Positions 1,642 to 52,965 of a stretch of 64,000 nt of DNA are shown one piece after another; the stretch's first letter is position 1, and each line of letters starts with the position of its first letter. The position numbers and the translations under genes are program-made. The notes below the pieces were generated by a model, which saw nothing but the letters and a program-made list of their open reading frames with translations, ran no database searches and had not been told where the DNA came from. The stretch is from the NCBI RefSeq assembly GCF_000023885.1, contig NC_013165.1, positions 1,488,001-1,552,000 on the forward strand, written 5' to 3'. Origin of the DNA: Slackia heliotrinireducens DSM 20476. GTDB lineage: Bacteria > Actinomycetota > Coriobacteriia > Coriobacteriales > Eggerthellaceae.

Positions 1642-4278
1642 ATGCCCAAGAAAATAGCCGTCATCGACGGAAACTCGCTCATGTACCGCGCCTACCACGC
1701 GGTTCCGCCGACCATGAACGCGCCTGACGGCACGCCTACCAACGCGGTGTTCGGATTCATCGCCATGTTCCTGAAGCTCTACGAGATGGCCAAGCCCGAC
1801 GCGGTCATCTGCGCGTTCGACGCCGGCAAGCCCGAGTTCCGCATGAAGGCCCTTGAAACATACAAGGCGCAGCGTCCGCCGATGGATGACGAGCTGCGCG
1901 TGCAGTTCCCGGTCATCGAAAGCCTGCTTGAGGCCATGAGCGTGCCGGTGGTCCGCCTGAAGGGTTGGGAAGGCGACGACATCCTTGGCACCATCGCCGC
2001 CCGCGACGAGGAGCTGGGGTATGAAACGCTGTTGATCACCGGCGACAAAGACGCGTATCAGCTGGTGACCGACCTGACGCGCGTCGTCACCACCAAGAAG
2101 GGCATTACCGACGTGGCCATCTACGGCCCCGCCGAGGTGGAGGAGCGCTACGGCGTGACTCCCGAGCAGTTCCCCGATTTTCTGGGGCTGAAGGGCGACT
2201 CCGCCGACAACATCCCCGGCGTGCCGGGCATCGGCGACAAGACCGCGGCCAAGCTGCTGCAGAACTACGGCACCATGGACGGCATCTACGAGAATCTGGA
2301 CAAGCTCAAGGGCAAGCAGCTCGAGAACCTGACCAACAACCGCGACGTGGCGTTCATCAGCCGCGAGGTGGCTACCATCGTGCGTGACGTGGACCTGGAG
2401 GTCGACCTGGAAGCGGCGGCGTTTCCGGCATTCGACGCGCAGGCCGTAACCGATGCGTTCCACGCGGTGCGGTTCAATTCCCACCTGCAGAAGATGCTGG
2501 GGCTGGCGGGGCAGGAGGCGCCGGTAACCGCTGCCGCCGCAATCGAGTTGCCGAAAGCGGACGTGCTTACGGGAGCCGAAGCCGCCGAAGGGCTGGCTGC
2601 GGCCATCGACGCCGGCCAGATGATCGCGCTCGAATTCGTCGTGCCCGACCAGGCCAGCCTGTTCGACGACTTCAAAACGATGTTCGCCGGCACGGCCGAA
2701 GCCGTGTTCAAGTTTACCGACGAGGAAGTGGCGCCTGCCTTCGGCAGGGTGGTCCGCGAAGCGCGGTTCTGCGCGTTGGACGTGAAGAAGACCCTGCAGG
2801 AAGGCTATCCGGCCGACACCGCGAAGGATGCCGAACTGACCGCGGACGACGTTCGCCATGCGGACTACTTCGACATCGGCCTTGCCGCCTACCTTCTGAA
2901 TTCCAACACCGACGTCTTTGCCTACGATGCGCTGGCTGACACATACCTTGCATCGTCCTTGCCCGAGACCAAGGACGACGACGCGGCGGCGGCCGTCCAC
3001 GTTCTGGTTGCGCCCCGCTTGGTGAATGCGCTGCGCGAAGCTCTCGACAAAGACGGCTCTGCGGACGTGTATTACAAGATCGACCTGCCGTTGGTTTCCA
3101 CGTTGACGCTTATGGAACGTGTGGGCGCGCAGCTTGACGTGGACGCCCTGGCCGCTATGGGGTCTGCCACCCGCGGTGAGATAGACTCGCTGCGCGCGCA
3201 TATCCACGAGCTGGCAGGGGAGGAATTCAACGTGGATTCCCCCAAGCAGCTGGGCGTCATCCTGTTCGACAAGCTGGGACTCCCCCACGGCAAGAAGACG
3301 CGCACGGGGTATTCCACCAATGCCGCCACGCTCAAGAAGCTGCAGTCCATCCACCCCATAGCCGACGAGGTGCTGCGCTACCGCGAGCTGGCCAAGATGT
3401 CTTCTACCTATATTGATGCGTTGCCGCGCATGCGCGCCGACGACGGGCGCGTGCACACGCATTTCAACCAGACGGTGACCACCACCGGCCGGTTGAGCTC
3501 CAGCGACCCGAACCTGCAGAACATTCCCGTCCGCACCGATTTCGGGCGCCGCATCCGCGAGTGCTTCGTGCCGCTGCACGAAGGAGACGTGTTCGTGTCG
3601 GCGGACTATTCCCAAATCGAGCTCAGGCTGCTGGCGCACCTGTCCGGCGACGAGCATCTGGTGGACGCGTTCTGCTCCGGCGCCGATTTCCATGCTGCCA
3701 CGGCGGCTCGCGTGTTCGACGTTCCGGTGGACGAGGTCACGCCGCAGCTGCGCAGCCGCGCAAAGGCCGTTAACTTCGGCATCGTCTACGGACAGCAGGC
3801 GTTTGGTCTGGCCCAGAGCCTGGACATCGGGTTCAAAGAGGCCCAGGACATGATCGACCGCTACTTCGAGGCGTATCCCGGCGTCCGCTCCTATCTGGAC
3901 AAGACCGTGGAAGACGCCAAGCAGACGGGGTACGCCGTCACCATGTTCGGACGAAAGCGCCACATCCCCGAGCTGAAGATGCGCAACGCCGTGCAGCGAG
4001 GGTTCGGTGAACGCACGGCCATGAACCACCCCATGCAAGGCTCGGCGGCCGACATCATCAAGCTGGCCATGAACGAGGTCCAACGCCGCCTGATCGAGGA
4101 CGGCTTCGAATCGCAGCTCATGCTGCAGGTGCACGACGAACTGGACCTGAGCGTGCCTGCCGATGAGCTGGAACGCCTGAGCGACATGGTGCGAGAGGTC
4201 ATGTCGACCATCGTCGAGCTCAAAGTGCCGCTGCTGGTGGATGTGTCGTCCGGTCCCAACTGGGCAGCCGCGCACTAG
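1642..4278 (+). CDS. polA: DNA polymerase I
   Basis: An 878-residue family A DNA polymerase used in gap filling and Okazaki fragment processing. The N-terminal 5'-3' flap nuclease domain (to about 290) has the GDKDAYQLV and GLKGDSADNIPGVPGIG motifs. The polymerase domain has motif A (DYSQIELRLL, Asp655), motif B (RSRAKAVNFGIVYGQ) and motif C (HDE at 831-833). The middle 3'-5' exonuclease-like domain appears inactive: the region corresponding to the DxE metal-binding motif reads IALEFVVPDQ. Proofreading is therefore probably absent, as in Taq and many Gram-positive PolA proteins. ATG 1642 has GGGAGGA seven bases upstream. The upstream in-frame ATG at 1597 lacks a comparable site. A TATACT -10-like box lies at 1589-1594. 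Confidence 0.98.
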   Translation: MPKKIAVIDGNSLMYRAYHAVPPTMNAPDGTPTNAVFGFIAMFLKLYEMAKPDAVICAFDAGKPEFRMKALETYKAQRPPMDDELRVQFPVIESLLEAMSVPVVRLKGWEGDDILGTIAARDEELGYETLLITGDKDAYQLVTDLTRVVTTKKGITDVAIYGPAEVEERYGVTPEQFPDFLGLKGDSADNIPGVPGIGDKTAAKLLQNYGTMDGIYENLDKLKGKQLENLTNNRDVAFISREVATIVRDVDLEVDLEAAAFPAFDAQAVTDAFHAVRFNSHLQKMLGLAGQEAPVTAAAAIELPKADVLTGAEAAEGLAAAIDAGQMIALEFVVPDQASLFDDFKTMFAGTAEAVFKFTDEEVAPAFGRVVREARFCALDVKKTLQEGYPADTAKDAELTADDVRHADYFDIGLAAYLLNSNTDVFAYDALADTYLASSLPETKDDDAAAAVHVLVAPRLVNALREALDKDGSADVYYKIDLPLVSTLTLMERVGAQLDVDALAAMGSATRGEIDSLRAHIHELAGEEFNVDSPKQLGVILFDKLGLPHGKKTRTGYSTNAATLKKLQSIHPIADEVLRYRELAKMSSTYIDALPRMRADDGRVHTHFNQTVTTTGRLSSSDPNLQNIPVRTDFGRRIRECFVPLHEGDVFVSADYSQIELRLLAHLSGDEHLVDAFCSGADFHAATAARVFDVPVDEVTPQLRSRAKAVNFGIVYGQQAFGLAQSLDIGFKEAQDMIDRYFEAYPGVRSYLDKTVEDAKQTGYAVTMFGRKRHIPELKMRNAVQRGFGERTAMNHPMQGSAADIIKLAMNEVQRRLIEDGFESQLMLQVHDELDLSVPADELERLSDMVREVMSTIVELKVPLLVDVSSGPNWAAAH

Positions 4279-4295
4279 AGATACGGATGTACCGA

Positions 4296-4320
4296 GGACC
4301 CGCTTCGTGCGGGTCCATTT
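4296..4320 (+). terminator. Rho-independent terminator after polA
   Basis: A perfect 8-bp stem, GGACCCGC (4296-4303) with GCGGGTCC (4309-4316), closes a TTCGT loop and is followed by ATTTTGCT. Confidence 0.85.
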
Positions 4321-4623
4321 TGCTGACGCCAGACGCAAAACGCCCGTAAAGGAAGCTCTTGGCAGGTGCCACCGAAGGAAAGCGTGGCGCCCGAACACCG
4401 TACAGTATTTTGGCCCGTTCAACTACCGATTGTATGCAAGTTGCGAAGGTGCACTTCATCAGGTGCATTCGACATGCATTGGTGGTATGATACGTCGGCG
4501 CTTTAACCATAAGTTTCCCCATGGGTAAGGCACGGCATAAAAAAGGATGGGCTCTGAGGTCCCAACAGTGTGTGCAAATTGCGAACACTGCAAGGTTTTC
4601 GGGGTCTTGTCTGGTGATATGTA
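4321..4623. other. Gene-free region upstream of rplU with a diverged direct repeat
   Basis: No credible gene is present here. A 17-base sequence of the form TGTRTGCAARTTGCGAA occurs at 4431-4447 and 4569-4585 with two mismatches. The second copy lies in a small hairpin (CAGTGT 4566-4571 with ACACTG 4585-4590). The region ends at the rplU promoter, so it is upstream DNA rather than the mRNA leader unless another promoter lies farther upstream. I see no known ribosomal-protein leader structure. Confidence 0.4.
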
Positions 4624-4652
4624 TTGACGCAAACCCACGGCGCCGATAAAAT
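4624..4652 (+). promoter_or_regulatory. Sigma-70-type promoter of rplU-rpmA
   Basis: The -35 hexamer TTGACG (4624-4629) and -10 hexamer TAAAAT (4647-4652) are separated by 17 bases. This predicts a transcript start near 4659 and a leader of about 32 bases before the L21 start codon. Confidence 0.8.
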
Positions 4653-4690
4653 ATCGCCTTGCGTTTTTAGACATTCAAGGAGATTTAGAC

Positions 4691-5011
4691 ATGTACGCTA
4701 TCGTAAAAACCGGTGGAAAACAGTACAAGGTTGCTCCCGGCGACATCCTTTCCGTCGAGAAGCTGGACGTTGCCACGGGCGAACAGGTCGAGCTTGAGGC
4801 CATCTGCGTCGTCAACGACGGCAAGGTCGAGCTCGAAGATGCCGCAGCAACCAAGGTTGTCGCGACTGTTCTTGAGCAGTTCAAGGGCGAGAAGCAGCTC
4901 GTCTTCAAGTTCAAGAAGCGCAAGAATTATAAGAAGCTGCAGGGTCATCGTCAGAAGTTGTCCCGCATCAAGATCGACAGCATCGGCGGCGTTGCTGCCG
5001 ACGCTCAGTAA
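4691..5011 (+). CDS. rplU: 50S ribosomal protein L21
   Basis: A 106-residue L21, a 23S rRNA-binding protein of the large subunit. MYAIVKTGGKQYKV is the typical N-terminus and KRKNYKKLQGHRQ is the conserved C-terminal RNA-binding region. The length is normal. AAGGAG lies 8 bases before the ATG. The gene is followed after 22 bases by rpmA and then obg, the classical rplU-rpmA-obg order in many bacteria. It is transcribed from the strong promoter at 4624-4652. Confidence 0.99.
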   Translation: MYAIVKTGGKQYKVAPGDILSVEKLDVATGEQVELEAICVVNDGKVELEDAAATKVVATVLEQFKGEKQLVFKFKKRKNYKKLQGHRQKLSRIKIDSIGGVAADAQ

Positions 5012-38003: not shown

Positions 38004-38300
38004 TTACGCTTCGACCTTTTCGGTGGCTTCGGCAGTCTCTTCGGCAGCTTCTTCGGCCTGAGGAGCCTCGATCTTCTTGGCGGCCTTCTTCTTGCGAGGC
38101 TTTGCGGTTTTCTGTTCTTCCTCTTCCTTCGCGGCCTCTTCTTCGGCTTCCTTCATCTCAGAGTCCATACCCTGTCGAAGGTTGCGCACCGTCTTGCCGA
38201 GCGCTGCGCCCAGCTTCGGGAGCTGCTTCGGTCCGAAGATCAGAAGCGCCACAGCCAGGATGATGAGAAGTTCGGGAAGACCCAATCCGCCGATTTTCAT
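38004..38300 (-). CDS. tatA: Sec-independent protein translocase subunit TatA
   Basis: A 98-residue TatA/E-type protein. It begins with MKIGGLGLPELLIILAVALL, a short transmembrane helix, then FGPKQLPKLGAALGKTVRNL, the amphipathic helix with the FGP motif. A charged tail of Glu, Ala and Lys completes it. TatA forms the pore for folded twin-arginine substrates. No tatC is next to it in this window. GGGGGT lies before the ATG, and a strong terminator follows. Confidence 0.96.
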   Translation of the reverse strand: MKIGGLGLPELLIILAVALLIFGPKQLPKLGAALGKTVRNLRQGMDSEMKEAEEEAAKEEEEQKTAKPRKKKAAKKIEAPQAEEAAEETAEATEKVEA

Positions 38301-38740
38301 GTTCGTACCCCCAATGGATGTCGATTTGTTTGCGGTCTTGCACTTGCGATGGGTGCATCCTACGGTTTTCGAGGCGTGGCGCATATCGTGCAAACCCATG
38401 AAATCGAGCCGAATCGGCCGAAATCTTCGTCATGCATATTGAGTATATGTATTACGAACTTGGGTTATGCGATTTGCCAACTTAAACCCCAAACCGCCGT
38501 CATCTTTTAGGAGCCGTGTCTCCAAGACGTTTTGAACCTTAGCGAAATCCAGAAACGATTGCAAAATTGATATTCAAATGAGTTCATAATCGGCAATTTG
38601 TAATCAAGATAATTAAATCCATATCAGCGAATTTAATTTGGCCGCTGTATTTCGACCGTTCACGATTAACTGGACCCCAAAAAGCTCGAAGTGACTATGC
38701 TTTAGGTGTCTTAAAACCAACAAGAAAGGATGTGGTTCCA
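38301..38740. other. 440-base intergenic region between divergent tatA and the SDR gene
   Basis: No gene is credible here. The half next to the dehydrogenase (about 38440-38700) is clearly AT-richer than its surroundings and contains many A and T tracts, which could act as upstream activating DNA for the strongly codon-biased dehydrogenase gene. A TATGCT -10-like box lies at 38696-38701. I see no riboswitch or repeat. Confidence 0.4.
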
Positions 38741-40477: not shown

Positions 40478-40501
40478 ATTAGGTACCAATTGTTACCTAA
40501 T
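40478..40501. promoter_or_regulatory. Perfect palindrome upstream of the ech operon
   Basis: ATTAGGTA (40478-40485) and TACCTAAT (40494-40501) are separated by CCAATTGT. The size and symmetry fit a dimeric regulator. It lies about 60-80 bases upstream of the candidate ech promoter. Confidence 0.5.
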
Positions 40502-40561
40502 TGCCGTTGACCGATGTAGTATCTCGTCCAATCGCATATACACCATGGGGTATACGTCTGT

Positions 40562-40589
40562 TTGGTACAGTGCAGCAGGCGATTATTAT
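40562..40589 (+). promoter_or_regulatory. Candidate ech promoter
   Basis: TTGGTA (40562-40567) and TATTAT (40584-40589) are 16 bases apart, 38 bases before the first start codon. Confidence 0.4.
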
Positions 40590-40627
40590 CGCCATTTTGT
40601 TTAGAAGGGGACCGAAAGAGAGCAAAC

Positions 40628-43479
40628 ATGCTGTTAACCGTAACGCTTATGCTCCTGCCGTGCATTGCCGCCCTGGTGATGCTGGCAGCACGGACGGATT
40701 CAGCCCGCGATGTGCTTTTACCATCGCATTCGCGGCGGCAATCGCCATTCTGTCCATCGTGTTTGCGGCCATGTTCATGGGCTCACAGCCCACTGTGTTC
40801 ATGCTGCCGCCCGAGTACACGCCGTGGCTCAGCCGGATCAATCTGATCTTAGACCTGACGGTATCGGCGTTCATCGTGTGCTACGCGTTGAAGTACCGCC
40901 GCACGATCACGTTCGCGCTGATCGCCATCCAGATCGTGCTTACGACCTGGCTGGAGTTCACCATGCGTGGCGGCGAGCATTTCACAAGCCAGATGTACAT
41001 CGATTCCTTCACGGTCATCATGGTGCTGATCATCGGCATCGTGGGTTCGGGCATCATCGTATACGCCCTGGGCTACATGAAGGATTGGCAGGCCCATCAT
41101 GAGGACCAGAAGGATCGCCGTCCGTGGTTCTTCGCCATCATGTTCGCCTTCCTGTCCGCCATGTACAACATCGTGATCAGCGACGACTTCGGCTGGATCT
41201 ACACCGCCTGGGAAATCACCACGCTGTGCTCGTTCCTGTTGATCGGCTTCGCCAAGACTGAAGAGGCCCTCAACAACGCGTTCCTGCAGATCAAGCTGAA
41301 CATGATCGGCGGCATCGCCTTCCAGGTGGGCATCGCGTTCCTCAGCTTGAACGGCCTGCCTATGCTTTTCAGCGAGTTCATCGCCTACGGCTCCGCCGGC
41401 AACGCCATCGTCGCTTTCCCGGTCGCCTGCCTGGCGCTGGCCGGTATGACGAAGGCCGCGCAGATGCCCTTCCATTCGTGGCTGCTCGGAGCCATGGTGG
41501 CACCTACGCCTACCAGTGCGCTTCTGCACTCCTCCACGATGGTCAAGGCCGGCACGTTCCTGCTGCTGCGTCTGGCTCCGCTGTTCGTCGTGTGCCCCAC
41601 TGCATCTTATATGACCATCTTCGTCGGCGGCTTCACATTCCTGATGGCATCGCTTATGGCCATCTCACAGACCAACGCCAAACGCGTCCTGGCTTACTCG
41701 ACCATCGCCAACCTCGGCCTGATCACGGCTTGCGCCGGCGTCGGTACGCCTGAGGCCGTGTGGGCGGGCGTCTTCCTGGTCATCTTCCACGCTGTGGCCA
41801 AGTCGCTGCTGTTCCTCTGCGTCGGCACCGCCGAGCACCACATCGGCTCTCGCGACATCGAGGACATGGACGAGCTGTTCAACCGCATGCCGCGGCTGGC
41901 CCGCCTCATGATGCTCGGCATCATGGGCATGTTCGTGGCCCCCTTCGGCATGCTCATTTCCAAGTGGGCGACGCTGCAGTCCTTCGCATCTACCGGGCAG
42001 GTCGTGCTCATTGCGCTTCTGGCATTCGGTTCTGCTGCAACTTTCCTCTTCTGGGCCAAGTGGCTGGGTAAGCTCTCCGGCATCGCAGCGCATGCTGAGA
42101 ACATCGAGCTCGACGTTCATAAGAGCGAATGGGCTGCTCAAGGCCTCATGGCCGCCTTGGTCGCCCTCTGCTGCGTCTGCATGCCGCTGCTTTCCACCTA
42201 CCTTGTCGAGCCGTTCCTGGTCAACACCTACGGCACCTTCGGAAACACCATCGGCATGGACAACATGCTGCTGATGGGCCTGATCGTCGCCCTTTTGGTG
42301 GTCGTCCTTTTCGGCACGCTGGGCAAGAAGCCCGTCAAGCAGACGAGCATCTACCTGGCAGGCATCTCCGTCGACAACGAGGCTCGCACGTTCAAGGGTT
42401 CGCTTGGCAATGTCCGCACGGCAACGGGCCGCAATTGGTACCTTGCCGACATCTTCGGCGAGGCCAAGCTCGACTATCCTTCCGTCGTGCTTCCCATCGT
42501 CGCCATCGCCATCGGCATCTGCGCCTCGTTCCACTTCGCGATGACCAGCCCGACCACCGTGGTGTCGCTGGTCCTGTATGCAACCGTCGGAACGACTGGC
42601 AATACGCTGCTGCGCATTCTCATCGGCACCTTGGCGTTCGCAATCCTGGCTCCTGTTATCGGCTGCCTGCTTGCCGGCATCGACCGTAAGCTCACAGCGA
42701 AGATGCAGGGTCGTGTCGGTCCTCCGCTGCTGCAGCCTTATTATGACGTGCAGAAGCTGATTGCCAAGGACGACGTCCATGTGAACTCCGTCGAGGGAAC
42801 CTACGTCACCGCAGCACTCATCTTCGCTGTGCTGGCAGGCGGCATCTTCTACGGCGGCGGAAACTTCCTGCTGTGCGTGTTCCTGGTCACCCTGTCCGGC
42901 CTTATGTTCATCCTGGCAGCCTACTCCACGCGTTCGCCCTACGCCGAAGTCGGCGCCGACCGCGAGGCTCTGCAGGTCATGTCCTATGAGCCCATGCTCA
43001 TGTTCTTGGCCGTTGGTCTGTTCCTGACGCTGGGCACCTTCGACGCCTCCGGCGTGTTCCTCTACGATGCTCCGCCCATCGTGGCCCTGTGGCCCATCTT
43101 CATCGGCTTGATGTTCATTCTGACCATCAAGCTGCGCAAGTCGCCGTTCGACCTGTCCTATTCGCACCATGCGCATCAGGAGCTGGTCAAAGGCATCACC
43201 ACCGAGATGAGCGGCAAGACCCTGGCGAAGATCGAGGTCATGCACTGGTGCGAGAGCGTCCTGTTCCTGGGCTGGGTCGGCATGTTCTTCGTGTGCCATA
43301 ACCCGCTGTCGTTGGTACTGGCTGTCGTGGTCGCCTTCCTGGCGTTCTTCCTCGAGATCTTCATCGACAACAACTTCGCCCGTGTGAAGTGGCAGTCGAT
43401 GCTCAAGTGGGCCTGGATCATCTCCGGCGTGCTGGGCATTGCCAATATCGCGGCACTGGTCATCTTCAACGTCCTTTAG
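40628..43479 (+). CDS. Fused EchA-EchB-like membrane subunit of a group 4 [NiFe] hydrogenase (apparent frameshift near the 5' end)
   Basis: A protein of about 950 residues joins two membrane subunits that are normally separate. The first part is a NuoL/EchA-type proton or sodium channel: TAWEITTLCSFLLIGFAKTE and MPFHSWLLGAMVAPTPTSAL are antiporter signatures. The last third is NuoH/EchB-like, with IDRKLTAKMQGRVGPPLLQP. The best start, MLLTVTLMLLPCIAALVML at 40628, is out of frame with the rest. One missing T in TTTT at 40716-40719 would join them. Without correction the frame opens upstream into a non-membrane N-terminus that looks spurious. It heads the ech operon, with EchC 9 bases downstream. 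Confidence 0.88.
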
Positions 43480-43488
43480 GAGTCCGGC

Positions 43489-43929
43489 ATGAGCAGCATT
43501 TCTAAATCACCCTGGGTCTTGCACTACGACGCCAGCAGCTGCAACGGCTGCGACATCGAGGTGCTGGCGGCCCTGTCGCCCGTCTACGACGCCGAGCGTT
43601 TCGGCGTGATCAATACGGGCAACCCCAAGCACGCTGACATTTTCGTCATCACGGGATCTGTCAACGAACGCAACATCGACGTCGTGAAGGAGCTCTACGA
43701 GCAGATGGTCGAACCCAAGGTCGTCGTGGCCTGCGGTTCATGCGCCTGCTCCGGCGGCATCTTCCACGACTGCTATAACGTCCTGGGCGGCGTGGACAAC
43801 GCCATCCCCGTGGATGTGTACGTACCCGGCTGCGCTGTGCGCCCTGAATCCATTATCGATGGTGTCGTCGAAGCGATCGGCATCCTCGAGGAGAAGGCGG
43901 CGGCCTTGAAGAACAAGAAGGGGGAGTAG
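43489..43929 (+). CDS. echC: Hydrogenase small subunit (EchC/NuoB-like)
   Basis: A 146-residue member of the NuoB/[NiFe] small-subunit family of membrane-bound group 4 hydrogenases. It carries the proximal [4Fe-4S] cluster. Candidate ligands are Cys18 and Cys21 (SSCNGCD), the ACGSCACSGG region (Cys82-87) and Cys115 in VPGCAVRPE. AGGAG precedes the ATG. It lies between the fused EchAB gene and EchD, matching the canonical A-B-C-D-E-F order. Confidence 0.93.
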   Translation: MSSISKSPWVLHYDASSCNGCDIEVLAALSPVYDAERFGVINTGNPKHADIFVITGSVNERNIDVVKELYEQMVEPKVVVACGSCACSGGIFHDCYNVLGGVDNAIPVDVYVPGCAVRPESIIDGVVEAIGILEEKAAALKNKKGE

Positions 43930-43931
43930 CC

Positions 43932-44555
43932 GTGGCATTGCAGACCACATTCGAAACCATCGCGATCGACGAGCTGCTCGATGTGGCCGCCCAGAAGAAG
44001 GCGGACGGCTACCGTTTCGTGCAGGTGCTCTGCCATTTCGTCGATCCCGGCATCGATGTCGTGTATTCGTTCATGAGCAGGGAAGGCGTCCTTGAGAACT
44101 ACACCATCAAGGATTACGACCGAGAGACACAGACCATCCCGTCCATCACGGGCAAGTATCTGGCCGCGTTCCCCTTCGAGAACGAGGCCCACGACCTGTA
44201 CGGCGTCAAGATCACCGACATTGCCATCGATTTTGCGGGCAAATTCTACGACGTCGCCATGGACACGCCTATGACGGTCATTACGCCCGAACAGAAGGCC
44301 GCCCGTGACAAGCGCCGCGCCGCTGCCGCAGCGAAGGCGGCCAAAGAAGCTGCGCCGGCCGAAAAGCCCAAGCAGCCCGCTGCCGAGGCCAAGCCTGAGG
44401 CGAAGCCCGCACCGGCGCCAGCCAAGGCACAGCCTGCAAAAGACGTTGAATTGGAAGCGAAGATCGCCGCCATGCCGCCTGAGAAGGCAGCGAAGTTCCG
44501 TGCCGCCATGGAAGCCAAGGCTGCACGCGACGCGGCTCAGAAGGGAGGTGAGTAG
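43932..44555 (+). CDS. echD: EchD/NuoC-like hydrogenase subunit with a repeat-bearing C-terminal tail
   Basis: A 207-residue subunit. Residues 1-115 are the NuoC-like 30 kDa core: FPFENEAHDLYGVKITD is diagnostic. Residues 120-207 form an Ala/Lys/Pro-rich extension ending in a charged segment, LEAKIAAMPPEKAAKFRAAM (174-193). That motif recurs three times in the tail of EchF. The two tails may pair or bind a common partner. Canonical EchD ends near the core. GTG 43932 follows GGGGGAG, two bases after the echC stop. Confidence 0.9.
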   Translation: MALQTTFETIAIDELLDVAAQKKADGYRFVQVLCHFVDPGIDVVYSFMSREGVLENYTIKDYDRETQTIPSITGKYLAAFPFENEAHDLYGVKITDIAIDFAGKFYDVAMDTPMTVITPEQKAARDKRRAAAAAKAAKEAAPAEKPKQPAAEAKPEAKPAPAPAKAQPAKDVELEAKIAAMPPEKAAKFRAAMEAKAARDAAQKGGE

Positions 44556-44557
44556 CC

Positions 44558-45646
44558 GTGGGTAAAGCGACTGTCATCCCGTTCGGCCCCCAGCACCCCG
44601 TGCTGCCCGAGCCTCTGCATCTCGACCTGGTTGTTCAGGACGAGAAAGTTATCGAAGTCATCCCGCAGATCGGATTCATCCATCGCGGACTCGAGAAGCT
44701 CGTTGAGAAGAAAGACATCCACCAGTTCATCTACGTTGCAGAACGCATCTGCGGCATCTGCAGCTTCGGCCACAGCCTCGGTTACGCCGAAACCGTAGAG
44801 AAGCTGATGGGGGTCGAGGTGCCGCGCCGCGCCGAGTATCTGCGTGTCATCCTGCACGAGCTGTCCCGTATCCATTCGCATCTGTTGTGGCTGGGCCTTG
44901 CCGCCGATGCCTTCGGGTTCGAGGCTTTGTTTATGCACTCCTGGCGAATCCGCGAACGTGTGCTGGACATCTTCGAAGCCACCACGGGCGGCCGCGTCAT
45001 CCTGTCCGCCGTGCAGATCGGCGGTGTGATCCGCGACATCGACGATGAGGAGCTCAAGCAGATTTCCGCCACGCTGGACGGCATGAGGAGCGAATATGCC
45101 GAGCTCATGGCCACGTTCCTTAACGACACTTCGGTGCGCAGCCGTCTTGTCAACGTGGGTCGTCTGACCCAGACTCAGGCCGAAGACCTGTGCATGGTCG
45201 GCCCCTTCGCCCGCGCATCCAACGTGAAATTCGACTGCCGCATGCTGGGCAACGGTGCCTACGGCGAGCTTGAGAACTTCCAGCCCATTCTGGACGACGA
45301 AGGCGACTGCTACGCCCGCGTTCGCGTGCGCTGCAAGGAAGTTATCCAGTCCATCGATATCATCCAGGAGCTAATCGCTAAGATTCCGCACGACGGCATC
45401 GGCGAACGCAGCAAGCTGACGCCTCCCGACGGTGCTCAGGCCGCAAACGTGCTCGAGCAGCCCCGCGGCGAATGCTACTACTACGCCCGCGGCAACGGCT
45501 CCAAGAACCTGGAACGCATGCGCATGCGCACGCCCACCAGCCAGAACCTCGCCGGCCTCGTGGCCGCCTGTGAAGGTGCCGAGCTGGCCGACGTGCCGAA
45601 CATTCTTCTGACCATCGACCCCTGCATCAGCTGCACGGAAAGGTAG
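44558..45646 (+). CDS. echE: Hydrogenase large subunit (EchE/NuoD-like), catalytic
   Basis: A 362-residue [NiFe] large subunit. Both cysteine pairs that ligate the nickel-iron site are present: RICGIC (Cys65, Cys68) and DPCISC near the C-terminus (Cys356, Cys359). This therefore looks like a true hydrogenase and not a complex I NuoD. The protein ends at CTER, three residues after the last ligand, so no cleavable tail is present, as in other Ech-type subunits. GTG 44558 follows GGGAGGTGA. Maturation genes (hyp) are not in this window. Confidence 0.95.
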   Translation: MGKATVIPFGPQHPVLPEPLHLDLVVQDEKVIEVIPQIGFIHRGLEKLVEKKDIHQFIYVAERICGICSFGHSLGYAETVEKLMGVEVPRRAEYLRVILHELSRIHSHLLWLGLAADAFGFEALFMHSWRIRERVLDIFEATTGGRVILSAVQIGGVIRDIDDEELKQISATLDGMRSEYAELMATFLNDTSVRSRLVNVGRLTQTQAEDLCMVGPFARASNVKFDCRMLGNGAYGELENFQPILDDEGDCYARVRVRCKEVIQSIDIIQELIAKIPHDGIGERSKLTPPDGAQAANVLEQPRGECYYYARGNGSKNLERMRMRTPTSQNLAGLVAACEGAELADVPNILLTIDPCISCTER

Positions 45647-45652
45647 GTTCTT

Positions 45653-46555
45653 GTGGGAAGTTTCAAACTCGGCAAGATGACCATGCGGTCGTTGTTCGGA
45701 ACGCCGGAAACTGTTCTGTATCCTGTCGTTGAGCCTAAGCGCCATGCGAACACCCGCGGTCACATTGAAAACCATGCCCCGCAGGACTGCATCCTGTGCG
45801 GCATCTGCATGAAGAAATGCCCGGCGAACGCCATCGTCGTCAGCAAGCCTGAACGCACTTGGACTATCGACCCGTTCCGCTGCATCAGATGCAACGAATG
45901 CGCCATCGCATGTCCGAAGCAATGCTTGAGCATGCATATGGAAAAATCGGACGCTTCCAAGGAACATGCGGCAACTGTCGTGGAGATTCCCGAATCCGAG
46001 AAGGATCGTGAGAAGCGGCTGGCCGCCGAAGCGCGCAAGGCTGAGGCCGCCAAGGCTGCACCGGCCACTGCTCCTGCTGCATCTGCTGACGAAAGCGTTC
46101 AGCTGTCGCCCGAGATGGAGGCGAAGATTGCTGCAATGCCGCCTGAGAAGGCAGCCAAGTTCCGTGCAGCCTGCATCGCCAAAGCCAAAAAGGAACAGGC
46201 CGCCGCGGCGCCTGCTGCCGCATCGGACGAGGTCGAAGTGGTGTTCCCCGAGCATGTGGCCGCTAAGCTGGCCAACATGTCCCCTGAGAAGGTGGAGAAG
46301 TTCCGCGCAGCTTGGATCGCAAAGAAGATGGGTGGGGGAGCCGGTGCAGAGCCTGCCTCCAAGCCGGAACCTGCTGCGGACAAGCCGGCTGCAGCGCCTG
46401 TTCAGAAGGTTGCGGTGCCGGAGCTGCCAGCCGAACCGAAGGAGCTGCGCGTGCCGCGCGACCTTGAGGAGAAGCTGAAGCTCCTCGATCCGGAGAAAGC
46501 GGAGAAGTTCCGCTCGGCCTGGTTGGCGAAAGCAAAGAGGGACGCCGGTTTGTAA
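45653..46555 (+). CDS. echF: EchF/NuoI-like ferredoxin subunit with three C-terminal repeats
   Basis: A 300-residue subunit. Two [4Fe-4S] clusters are ligated by Cys46, 49, 52, 56 and Cys77, 80, 83, 87. They pass electrons from ferredoxin to the small subunit. After about residue 115 the protein becomes an Ala/Pro/Lys-rich tail of 185 residues. It contains three copies of a motif of about 27 residues (153-179, 199-225, 268-296) with the core xPEKxxKFRxAxxAK, which also ends EchD. A typical EchF ends after the clusters. GTG 45653 has AAAGGTAGG upstream. It is the last gene of the operon. Confidence 0.93.
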   Translation: MGSFKLGKMTMRSLFGTPETVLYPVVEPKRHANTRGHIENHAPQDCILCGICMKKCPANAIVVSKPERTWTIDPFRCIRCNECAIACPKQCLSMHMEKSDASKEHAATVVEIPESEKDREKRLAAEARKAEAAKAAPATAPAASADESVQLSPEMEAKIAAMPPEKAAKFRAACIAKAKKEQAAAAPAAASDEVEVVFPEHVAAKLANMSPEKVEKFRAAWIAKKMGGGAGAEPASKPEPAADKPAAAPVQKVAVPELPAEPKELRVPRDLEEKLKLLDPEKAEKFRSAWLAKAKRDAGL

Positions 46556-51228: not shown

Positions 51229-52965
51229 ATGGAACTGCTATCGGGCAACGAGGCCATAGCGCGTGGTGCGTGGGAAGCCGGCGCCACCATCGGCGTGGCG
51301 TACCCCGGCACCCCCTCCACCGAAACGATGGAGAACTTCGGCAAGTACGAGGACGTATACGCCGAATGGTGCACTAATGAGAAAGTGGCCGTCGAAGTGG
51401 GCATGGGTGCATCCATGGCCGGGCGTCGCGTGCTGTCGACCATGAAGCACGTTGGCGTGAACGTGGCGGCAGACCCGCTGTTCACGGCGGCTTACACGGG
51501 CATCGGCGGCGGCTTCGTCATTCTGGCGGCCGACGACCCGGGCATGCATTCGTCCCAGAACGAGCAGGATTCCCGCTACTACGCCATGGCGGCCCATATC
51601 CCCATGCTCGACCCTGCGGATTCCTCCGAGGCCCTGAAGTTCACCCGCGACGCCTACGAGCTGTCCGAGCGCTTCGACACGCCGGTCATGATCCGATCCA
51701 ACGTGCGCGTGTCCCACACAAGGTGCCTGGTAGAAGTGGGGGAGAAGGTTCCCTTCGAGCCCAAGCCCTATAAGAAGGACGCCTCCAAGTACGTCATGAT
51801 GCCGCTGTACGCCAAGGTGCGCCGCGTCGTGCTGGAACAGCGCGTTGCAGACATGAAGGCTTTTGTCGAGGAATGCGAATACAACAAGGTTGTCGAAGGC
51901 GCCGACAACGAGATCGGCGTCATCTGCGCCGGCTCCACCTACCAACATGTGATCGAGGCGCTGCCTGAAGCCAACGTGCTCAAGATCGGGGTAAGCTGGC
52001 CGCTGCCCGAGAAGAAGATCCGCGATTTCGCGGCATCCGTGAAGGACGTTTACGTGATCGAGGAGGGCTCCGAGTACCTGTCCAATCAGGTGAAGGCCCT
52101 GGGCGTCACGCTGTCCGAAACCGTGCGTCCGCTCAAGCCTGAAGGAGAGTTGACACCTGGCCTGATCAGCTACGCCTTCGGCAAGGATATCCCGAGCCAC
52201 ATCGAGTCCCCGGAAGACCTGCCGCCCCGGCCGCCTGCGCTGTGCCCTGGTTGCCCGCATCGCCCGGTGTTTCGCGAACTGCATCGCATCCACGCCATCG
52301 TGACCGGCGACATCGGATGCTATACGCTGGGCGCCTTGGCTCCGCTTGAGGGCATCGACAGCGTGCTTGACATGGGCGCTTCCGTGTCCATGGCGCATGG
52401 CGTCGAACTGGCGCTTCAGGACAAGGCCCATAACCCCGTAGTCGCGGTCATCGGCGACTCCACCTTCGCCCATTCCGGCGCATCGTCGCTGCTGAACACC
52501 GTATACAACTGCGGCACGGGCACGGTGTGCATTCTGGACAACCGCACGACCGCCATGACCGGCCGCCAGGGCAATCCCGTCAACGGCGTTACGCTGCAGG
52601 GCCGCCCCAGCCGCGAACTGGACCTGCCCGCATTCGTGCGTTCCATGGGCGTGGACGATGTACGCGTCGTTGACCCGCAGGACTTGGAAGCCGTCAAGCG
52701 CGAGCTGGGCGACGCCACCAAGAACGACCACCTGACGGTCATCATCTTCAAATCGCCCTGCGTCCTTCTGGAGCGCAAGCAGCGTGAGAAGTACTGGATC
52801 AACGCCAACTGCCGCGGCTGCGGCATCTGCACCACGCTGGGCTGCCCGGCCATTTCCCGTGACTCAGAGTCGCGCCTGGCCAGCATCGACCCATCGCTGT
52901 GCTGCGGCTGCTCGCAGTGCAGCCAGCTGTGCCCGTTCGACGCCATCGTGCATGAAGGGAAGTAA
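51229..52965 (+). CDS. iorA: Indolepyruvate ferredoxin oxidoreductase, alpha subunit
   Basis: A 578-residue thiamine-diphosphate enzyme. With IorB it converts aryl pyruvates plus CoA to aryl acetyl-CoA, CO2 and reduced ferredoxin. The N-terminal pyrimidine-binding domain begins LLSGNEAIARGAWEAG. The TPP/Mg site GDSTFAHSGASSL lies near residue 410. The C-terminus carries two [4Fe-4S] motifs, CRGCGICTTLGCP and CCGCSQCSQLCP. AAGGGGGA precedes the ATG and iorB follows two bases later. The reduced ferredoxin is a candidate electron source for the Ech hydrogenase encoded 5 kb upstream. Confidence 0.97.
   Translation: MELLSGNEAIARGAWEAGATIGVAYPGTPSTETMENFGKYEDVYAEWCTNEKVAVEVGMGASMAGRRVLSTMKHVGVNVAADPLFTAAYTGIGGGFVILAADDPGMHSSQNEQDSRYYAMAAHIPMLDPADSSEALKFTRDAYELSERFDTPVMIRSNVRVSHTRCLVEVGEKVPFEPKPYKKDASKYVMMPLYAKVRRVVLEQRVADMKAFVEECEYNKVVEGADNEIGVICAGSTYQHVIEALPEANVLKIGVSWPLPEKKIRDFAASVKDVYVIEEGSEYLSNQVKALGVTLSETVRPLKPEGELTPGLISYAFGKDIPSHIESPEDLPPRPPALCPGCPHRPVFRELHRIHAIVTGDIGCYTLGALAPLEGIDSVLDMGASVSMAHGVELALQDKAHNPVVAVIGDSTFAHSGASSLLNTVYNCGTGTVCILDNRTTAMTGRQGNPVNGVTLQGRPSRELDLPAFVRSMGVDDVRVVDPQDLEAVKRELGDATKNDHLTVIIFKSPCVLLERKQREKYWINANCRGCGICTTLGCPAISRDSESRLASIDPSLCCGCSQCSQLCPFDAIVHEGK

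Follow-up and report, generated by a model that had tools for sequence, protein, structure and literature searches.

A conserved hairpin unit, possibly a docking tag, in the tails of Ech hydrogenase subunits of Slackia heliotrinireducens and its relatives

The DNA analysed here, a stretch of 64,000 nucleotides from Slackia heliotrinireducens DSM 20476 (NC_013165.1, positions 1,488,001 to 1,552,000; hereafter the window), carries an operon for an Ech-type [NiFe]-hydrogenase. Two of its subunits, the NuoC-like EchD and the NuoI-like EchF, continue past their recognised domains into long tails in which a unit of about 27 residues recurs. What is this unit, which proteins carry it and what might it do? 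An earlier reading of the window, made from the letters alone (the sequence-only reading), had proposed a docking module or a tether to the membrane or to ferredoxin. The results below describe an element that could be an undescribed docking tag bringing electron-handling proteins together.

The repeated unit and its predicted fold

One copy of the unit (D1) lies in the EchD tail and three (F1 to F3) in the EchF tail (Table 1). EchD and EchF each contain the exact core, MPPEKAAKFRAA, a single time, and EchF then adds two diverged copies, MSPEKVEKFRAA and LDPEKAEKFRSA; residue by residue, this bears out the sequence-only reading. The copies suggest a consensus of roughly xLEAKLAxM-DPEKAAKVRAAxEAKAK. 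Both tails begin past the domain matches, which are Pfam Complex1_30kDa, limited to residues 13-96, in EchD and Fer4_7, the best Fer4 match, at residues 46-91 in EchF. They are about 92 and 195 residues long, respectively, and rich in Ala, Lys, Glu and Pro.

The unit is not low-complexity noise. Scored with profile A3, which has the copies of the window among its rows, the real tails reach 50.3 (EchD) and 51.2 bits (EchF); among 5,000 shuffles of either tail, none exceeds 9.9 and 11.2, respectively. A profile-free local alignment of the EchD tail with the EchF tail scores 154, as against a mean of 71 and a maximum of 109 for 2,000 shuffles. When the whole genome (3,165,038 bases in one contig) is searched in six frames, strong matches are confined to the four places in EchD and EchF (E 2.5e-14 to 7e-13), and a fifth, half-length match is obtained at E 0.050 with profile A1 and 0.019 with profile A3. 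The shuffle tests and the genome search thus establish the repeats as real.

The unit is also conserved. Across 30 pairs of related EchD genes, the ratio of nonsynonymous to synonymous differences (pN/pS) is 0.152 for the unit (a value biased downwards because the unit is delimited by its own profile), 0.244 for the NuoC-like core and 0.274 for the other tail residues. Among 127 distinct cores of 24 residues, A20 is retained in 96%, K5 and K13 in 89%, K16 in 87% and V17 and R18 in 85%, and hydrophobic character is retained at core positions 2, 6, 9, 17 and 21. This pattern suggests a small hydrophobic seam, formed by these five positions, together with a basic face. The retention of K5, K13, K16 and R18 (85-89% of the cores) is as expected of a binding face. 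Mean net charge is +2.3 for the second helix over the 127 cores; the 24-residue core carries about +1, the EchD tail +7 and the EchF tail +2. The hydrophobic moment is 0.09-0.14 and the mean hydrophobicity -0.3 to 0.

In AlphaFold2 models built on alignments of 43 and 42 sequences, every copy is predicted to form a pair of helices whose turn lies near DP or PP. The block-mean predicted local distance difference test score (pLDDT) lies mostly between 88 and 96 within the hairpins, falls to 64-81 at some hairpin ends and is about 45-70 in the linkers; for D1 it is 91-96 over residues 171-200. The predicted template modelling scores are 0.44 and 0.61, and the position of the hairpins relative to the core is therefore taken as not predicted. 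Foldseek searches with the whole models return the known cores among the 50 best rows for each protein (complex I NuoC chains, MBS and MBH for EchD; the ferredoxin-like subunits of FHL, complex I and MBH for EchF), and the hairpin is not addressed by these matches.

Searched against Pfam, 32 copies gave no match above a curated cut-off (best E 0.069, with four unrelated families), and a profile search of the PDB gave no match to the whole unit, the best (E 0.014, to o-succinylbenzoate synthase) covering 14 of 31 positions. Whatever its partner, the unit is therefore a conserved element not listed in the Pfam version searched. Helix-turn-helix elements of 30-40 residues that serve docking or oligomerisation include the dimerisation/docking hairpins of PKA RII alpha and DPY-30 and the SHOCT-like domains. 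Their likeness to the unit is topological only, and no dimerisation/docking or SHOCT-like family is found among the Pfam matches of the 32 copies at E <= 10.

Carriers, distribution and history

Searches for the unit covered the family, class and phylum of the window and the phylum of a Pseudobutyrivibrio genome. Profile A1 was built from 32 copies, with no NfnA row; the rows of A1 and A3 were drawn from genomes that were later searched, and scores in those genomes are partly by construction. In 43 chosen genomes there are 91 places at E <= 0.02: 69 on EchD, 12 on EchF, 8 on NfnA and 2 elsewhere, the last two being weak and half-length (E 0.015 and 0.019). Carriers were assigned by position, one match in genome G152 being counted as EchD. 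Within these searches the unit is thus restricted to EchD, EchF and NfnA, and the picture of a low-complexity tail common to many unrelated proteins, which the sequence-only reading had named as its own undoing, is not what these genomes show.

In the window's family (Eggerthellaceae), profile A1 finds the unit in 110 of 138 genomes at E <= 0.001, its places being taken from the matches listed. The other undoing that the sequence-only reading had named, absence from the orthologous operons of close relatives, is likewise not what these searches show. A match to EchE at E <= 1e-40, distant hydrogenase relatives included, is found in 128. Of 396 genomes searched in the class, 140 have a match at E <= 1e-4; Eggerthellaceae account for 90 rows and a second family, in the same order and probably Coriobacteriaceae, for 50. 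At the level of the phylum, 20 of 396 genomes match, 10 in each of these two families and none in others. None of 348 genomes from the Pseudobutyrivibrio phylum yields the unit with profile A3, which as a positive control recovers copies in 42 of the 43 chosen genomes of the two families. All 20 stretches retrieved from the second family hold EchE with the unit adjoining on EchD, EchF or both (at locus L157 it lies in a broken, partly masked EchD frame). As the sequence-only reading had supposed of ordinary Ech subunits, the unit is missing from the Ech homologues of three other lineages (L032, L034, L035), whose tails, if any, are short.

Where both subunits could be read (90 loci), the unit is on EchD only in 49, on both in 21, on EchF only in 3 and on neither, as a full copy, in 17. 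This count leaves out L032, L034 and L035, repeats of identical EchE, and five loci with runs of N in EchD (L024, L026, L030, L100 and L157), which were also dropped from the EchD alignments. From this split it follows that the unit can change subunit and is sometimes absent; a module shared by two subunits of one complex, as first proposed, describes the 21 loci and is too narrow for the 49. Copy number ranges from one to five, with a maximum of five on EchD and three on EchF. The EchF maximum is that of the window, which alone among the 101 loci of our EchE tree has three full EchF copies; the five hairpin copies, the most seen, are in the 352-residue EchD frame of L102. In four of the 17 loci without the unit, EchF retains a second-helix motif that scores weakly (10-20 bits). 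A half-length motif, approximately EKAARVKAALEAKAARE, which fits the second helix only, is seen in the EchF tails of L202, L010/L218, L016/L220 and L219, where EchD has no copy.

The third carrier belongs to a different enzyme. NfnAB, an NADH-dependent ferredoxin:NADP+ oxidoreductase, is a soluble bifurcating enzyme and not a hydrogenase. The unit is found on the NfnA tail in three genera (g9, g24 and g33) and is thus not confined to Ech. These carriers surfaced with profile A1, among the matches listed, on contigs without a listed EchE. The NfnA carrier is about 360 residues long, scores 384 bits with NCBIfam NF004862 (cut-off 220) and, in P0006, has the [2Fe-2S] motif DGTGMCGxC. At locus L097, a 616-residue open reading frame downstream of NfnA was recognised by eye as the glutamate-synthase-like NfnB; NfnA and NfnB are separate genes there (1732-4779, minus strand). 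A 2019 review, by contrast, describes actinobacterial Nfn homologues as single fused genes (PMC6405883). NfnA homologues occur in 51 of the 138 family genomes, and the window's genome has no match at E <= 1e-40. Of 30 NfnA loci read from these 51 genomes, 10, all in the three genera, carry a single tail copy, and 20 lack a tail of this kind. Plasmids, searched with an NfnA fragment, yielded five homologues that are uninformative about the tail.

On the EchE tree of 101 loci, presence of the unit changes at least 6 times on EchF and at least 9 times on EchD. The tree is a quick one in which 31 of 98 inner branches are open, and the EchD tally includes the masked L024, L026, L030 and L157, for three of which the unit is entered as absent. 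Loci of the second family (L144-L163) group with the window's genus, in a set of 27 rows with Slackia-type loci (99% SH-aLRT), and not outside the window's family; this placement may point to a transfer of the operon from one family to the other.

Within a genome, EchD and EchF copies agree at 19.2 of 24 residues, compared with 15.0 between genomes, a likeness reached by none of 20,000 permutations (11 genomes) and by 2 of 5,040 (7 genomes, one per genus). The samples were chosen by hand (the matrix used 11 genomes, the one-per-genus test 7 and the codon test 18), and two L196 copies whose frame is unassigned were taken as EchD. Where EchD and EchF residues are identical, codons agree at 203 of 341 positions within genomes (143 expected) and at 2,395 of 4,722 between genomes. 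The within-genome likeness is due partly to DNA copying between echD and echF. Copying is evident at L147 (20 of 22 codons the same), L148 (16 of 22) and L201 (16 of 20). For the window itself, recent copying as the source of the likeness between D1 and F1 is not supported: 12 of 20 codons are the same where 9.3 are expected (P 0.13, with the little power of 20 codons), a longer register gives 12 of 22 (P 0.25), and codon agreement between the window's EchD copy and the EchF copies of other genomes averages 0.47. The result fits, and does not prove, a long-standing pair whose likeness is maintained in the protein.

What the unit might do

The reading that we favour, and to which we would give about an even chance, is that the unit is a portable protein-docking module of ferredoxin enzymes with a candidate partner in ferredoxin metabolism. 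The helical hairpin would fold independently or together with its partner, and the flexible Ala/Pro/Lys-rich linkers that bear it would give one to five hairpins the freedom to move about the peripheral arm of Ech. The hairpins would bind a partner that Ech shares, in one group of genera, with NfnAB; the likeliest type would be a ferredoxin-metabolism protein (ferredoxin itself or a ferredoxin-linked enzyme). All three carriers, EchD, EchF and NfnA, belong to ferredoxin-using complexes: Ech complexes use ferredoxin, and so, according to the 2019 review (PMC6405883), does Nfn. The presence of the unit on NfnA strengthens the docking reading. In Nfn, the review has ferredoxin predicted to bind NfnB and not NfnA. 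The predicted site on NfnB favours a role as a tag that clusters enzymes over direct hand-over at the NfnA tail. Taken further, one family of hairpins on the Ech subunits and NfnA might act as an address tag, recruiting these enzymes to each other or to a shared ferredoxin pool for local hand-over of reduced ferredoxin; we offer this extension tentatively and hold it to be doubtful.

Several observations weigh against the docking reading. Because 17 of the 90 Ech loci have no full copy, the unit is dispensable for Ech as such. On a tree of the 30 NfnA loci the tail unit appears as a single change, perhaps one event. The repeated changes on EchD and EchF are read from the weakly resolved tree and partly masked tally described above, and the low pN/pS of the unit carries its downward bias. 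In 4 of 11 genomes a better EchF match is found in another genome, and because of this and the DNA copying the within-genome likeness is not clean evidence of co-adaptation. Conservation, restriction to three carriers within the searches, relocation between subunits and a predicted hairpin fold are what the analysis shows; docking as such and the identity of the putative partner are what we infer.

Two rivals to docking are live. Hairpins may pair with one another (EchD with EchF, Ech with Ech, or Ech with NfnA) as four-helix bundles that cluster the complexes with no separate partner. We think this unlikely. In its favour, a 27-residue hairpin is small for stability alone, its core positions stay hydrophobic, it comes in one to five copies, EchD and EchF copies are alike within a genome, and its topology recalls the dimerisation/docking hairpin of PKA regulatory subunits. 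Yet 49 of 90 loci have it on EchD only, often as a single copy, and part of the likeness comes from copied DNA. Somewhat less probable still is an electrostatic arm, in which the Lys/Arg-rich second helix would loosely hold acidic ferredoxin near the EchF clusters with no specific docking fold. The charge of the second helix and of the EchD tail and the ferredoxin-using company of all carriers agree with this, and the RnfC of Azotobacter, part of another ferredoxin complex, has a long C-terminal helix to which the portion consulted of PMC12174285 assigns no function. The EchF tail and the 24-residue core are only weakly charged, however, the sequence is conserved far beyond its charge, and on Nfn ferredoxin is predicted to sit on the other subunit.

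The remaining explanations fare worse. A maturation factor could grasp the tails, or the tails could protect the complex, with no role in electron transfer; their C-terminal location on accessory subunits and their dispensability in some Ech-bearing relatives would suit such an assembly or stability device, which gives no reason to expect the module on NfnA too, a protein with no [NiFe] site, and which we regard as improbable. More improbable again is a tether of amphipathic, basic helices lying on the membrane surface or a polyanion. Ala/Lys-rich helices do adjoin a membrane complex here, but a hydrophobic moment of 0.09-0.14 and the mean hydrophobicity are low for a lipid-binding helix, which disfavours the tether, and NfnAB is soluble. 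Of the two functions first proposed, docking is thus kept as the best reading and the membrane tether is not. Least credible of all is that the tails are neutral low-complexity sequence expanding by slippage. Their Ala/Lys/Pro-rich linkers vary in length and sequence, and for these slippage is likely; for the unit itself it is contradicted by the shuffle tests, the pN/pS values and conservation across two families.

The closest analogue known to us is the Ala/Lys-rich C-terminal repeat of proteobacterial RnfC. The repeats of Escherichia coli K-12 RsxC, DPRKAAVEAAIARAKARK, are likewise Ala/Lys-rich, start with DPxKAA and form the tail of a membrane-bound Rnf-type complex, and by analogy they and the unit perhaps work alike. 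As homologues they are not supported: in E. coli K-12, the one strain searched, the profile is negative on them, its best domain (3.7 bits) lying outside. Some RsxB proteins also have an Ala-rich tail. The NCBIfam RsxB model NF005415 aligns with EchF residues 40-208 and so reaches into the tail, but its 44 bits are far below the cut-off of 281; we read the overlap as resting on the ferredoxin part and on composition.

In the titles and abstract openings of the open-access PMC library (closed journals lying outside this scope) we found no description of Ech tail repeats, nor any match for RnfC with alanine-rich repeats. The portion consulted of PMC9588780 has nothing on repeats, and that of PMC5861303 does not name EchD or EchF.

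To our knowledge, it is largely an open question by what means anaerobes direct reduced ferredoxin to one or another of the enzymes that compete for it. If the tag reading is true, a soluble enzyme and a membrane complex would form a metabolon assembled from interchangeable tags, and with such a tag on both an energy-converting hydrogenase and a bifurcating oxidoreductase, gut Coriobacteriia would allow a direct test of channelling. A docking hairpin, if confirmed, would also give protein engineers a small natural docking part.

The Ech operon of the window

Pfam identifies homologues of NuoL/M, NuoH, NuoB, NuoC, NuoD and NuoI in five consecutive genes, the first of which is a fusion (Table 1). 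The operon shares with other group 4 [NiFe]-hydrogenases of the Ech type the core EchA-F, the Cys motifs of the NiFe site and the two [4Fe-4S] motifs of EchF; it differs in the hairpin tails of EchD and EchF, whose unit the three other lineages lack, and in the fusion of EchA and EchB. The fused frame matches Proton_antipo_M (residues 228-511) and NADHdh (713-985). EchE, as read from its sequence, retains both Cys pairs: CGIC, within RICGICSFGH, lies close to the N terminus and DPCISC at the C terminus.

Table 1. Genes of the Ech operon, tails and copies of the unit (positions in the window)
Feature	Position	Strand	Remarks
EchA-EchB fusion (antiporter-like and NuoH-like membrane subunits)	40501..43479	+	Single open frame, 992 codons; true start may be downstream
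EchC, NuoB-like small subunit	43489..43929	+	Pfam Oxidored_q6, E 1.4e-30
EchD, NuoC-like subunit with C-terminal tail	43932..44555	+	GTG start, 207 residues
EchD tail, residues 116-207	44277..44552	+	AlphaFold2: helix 119-140, linker, one hairpin copy
Copy D1, EchD 172-198	44445..44525	+	E 3.6e-13 (whole genome); predicted helices 168-180, 183-205
EchE, [NiFe]-hydrogenase large subunit	44558..45646	+	Pfam Complex1_49kDa, NiFeSe_Hases
EchF, NuoI-like subunit, two [4Fe-4S] motifs and tail of about 195 residues	45653..46555	+	GTG start, 300 residues
EchF tail, residues 106-300	45968..46552	+	AlphaFold2: helix 116-135, three hairpin copies, Ala/Pro/Lys-rich linkers between
Copy F1, EchF 153-179	46109..46189	+	E 2.5e-14; predicted helices 153-161, 164-185
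Copy F2, EchF 199-225	46247..46327	+	E 3.2e-13; predicted helices 200-206, 211-226
Copy F3, EchF 268-296	46454..46540	+	E 7.0e-13; predicted helices 269-277, 280-298

Two other frames of the window were noted by eye. About 5 kb downstream of echF, positions 51229-52965 probably encode the large subunit of an indolepyruvate:ferredoxin oxidoreductase, another ferredoxin enzyme, in which the profile search found no copy of the unit. On the minus strand, positions 38004-38399 encode a TatA-like protein with an Ala/Lys/Glu-rich tail; a search of the window found no copy there. The arrangement of EchA and EchB varies among related loci: both parts are present in 36 of 55, as one open reading frame in 6 and as separate frames in 30.

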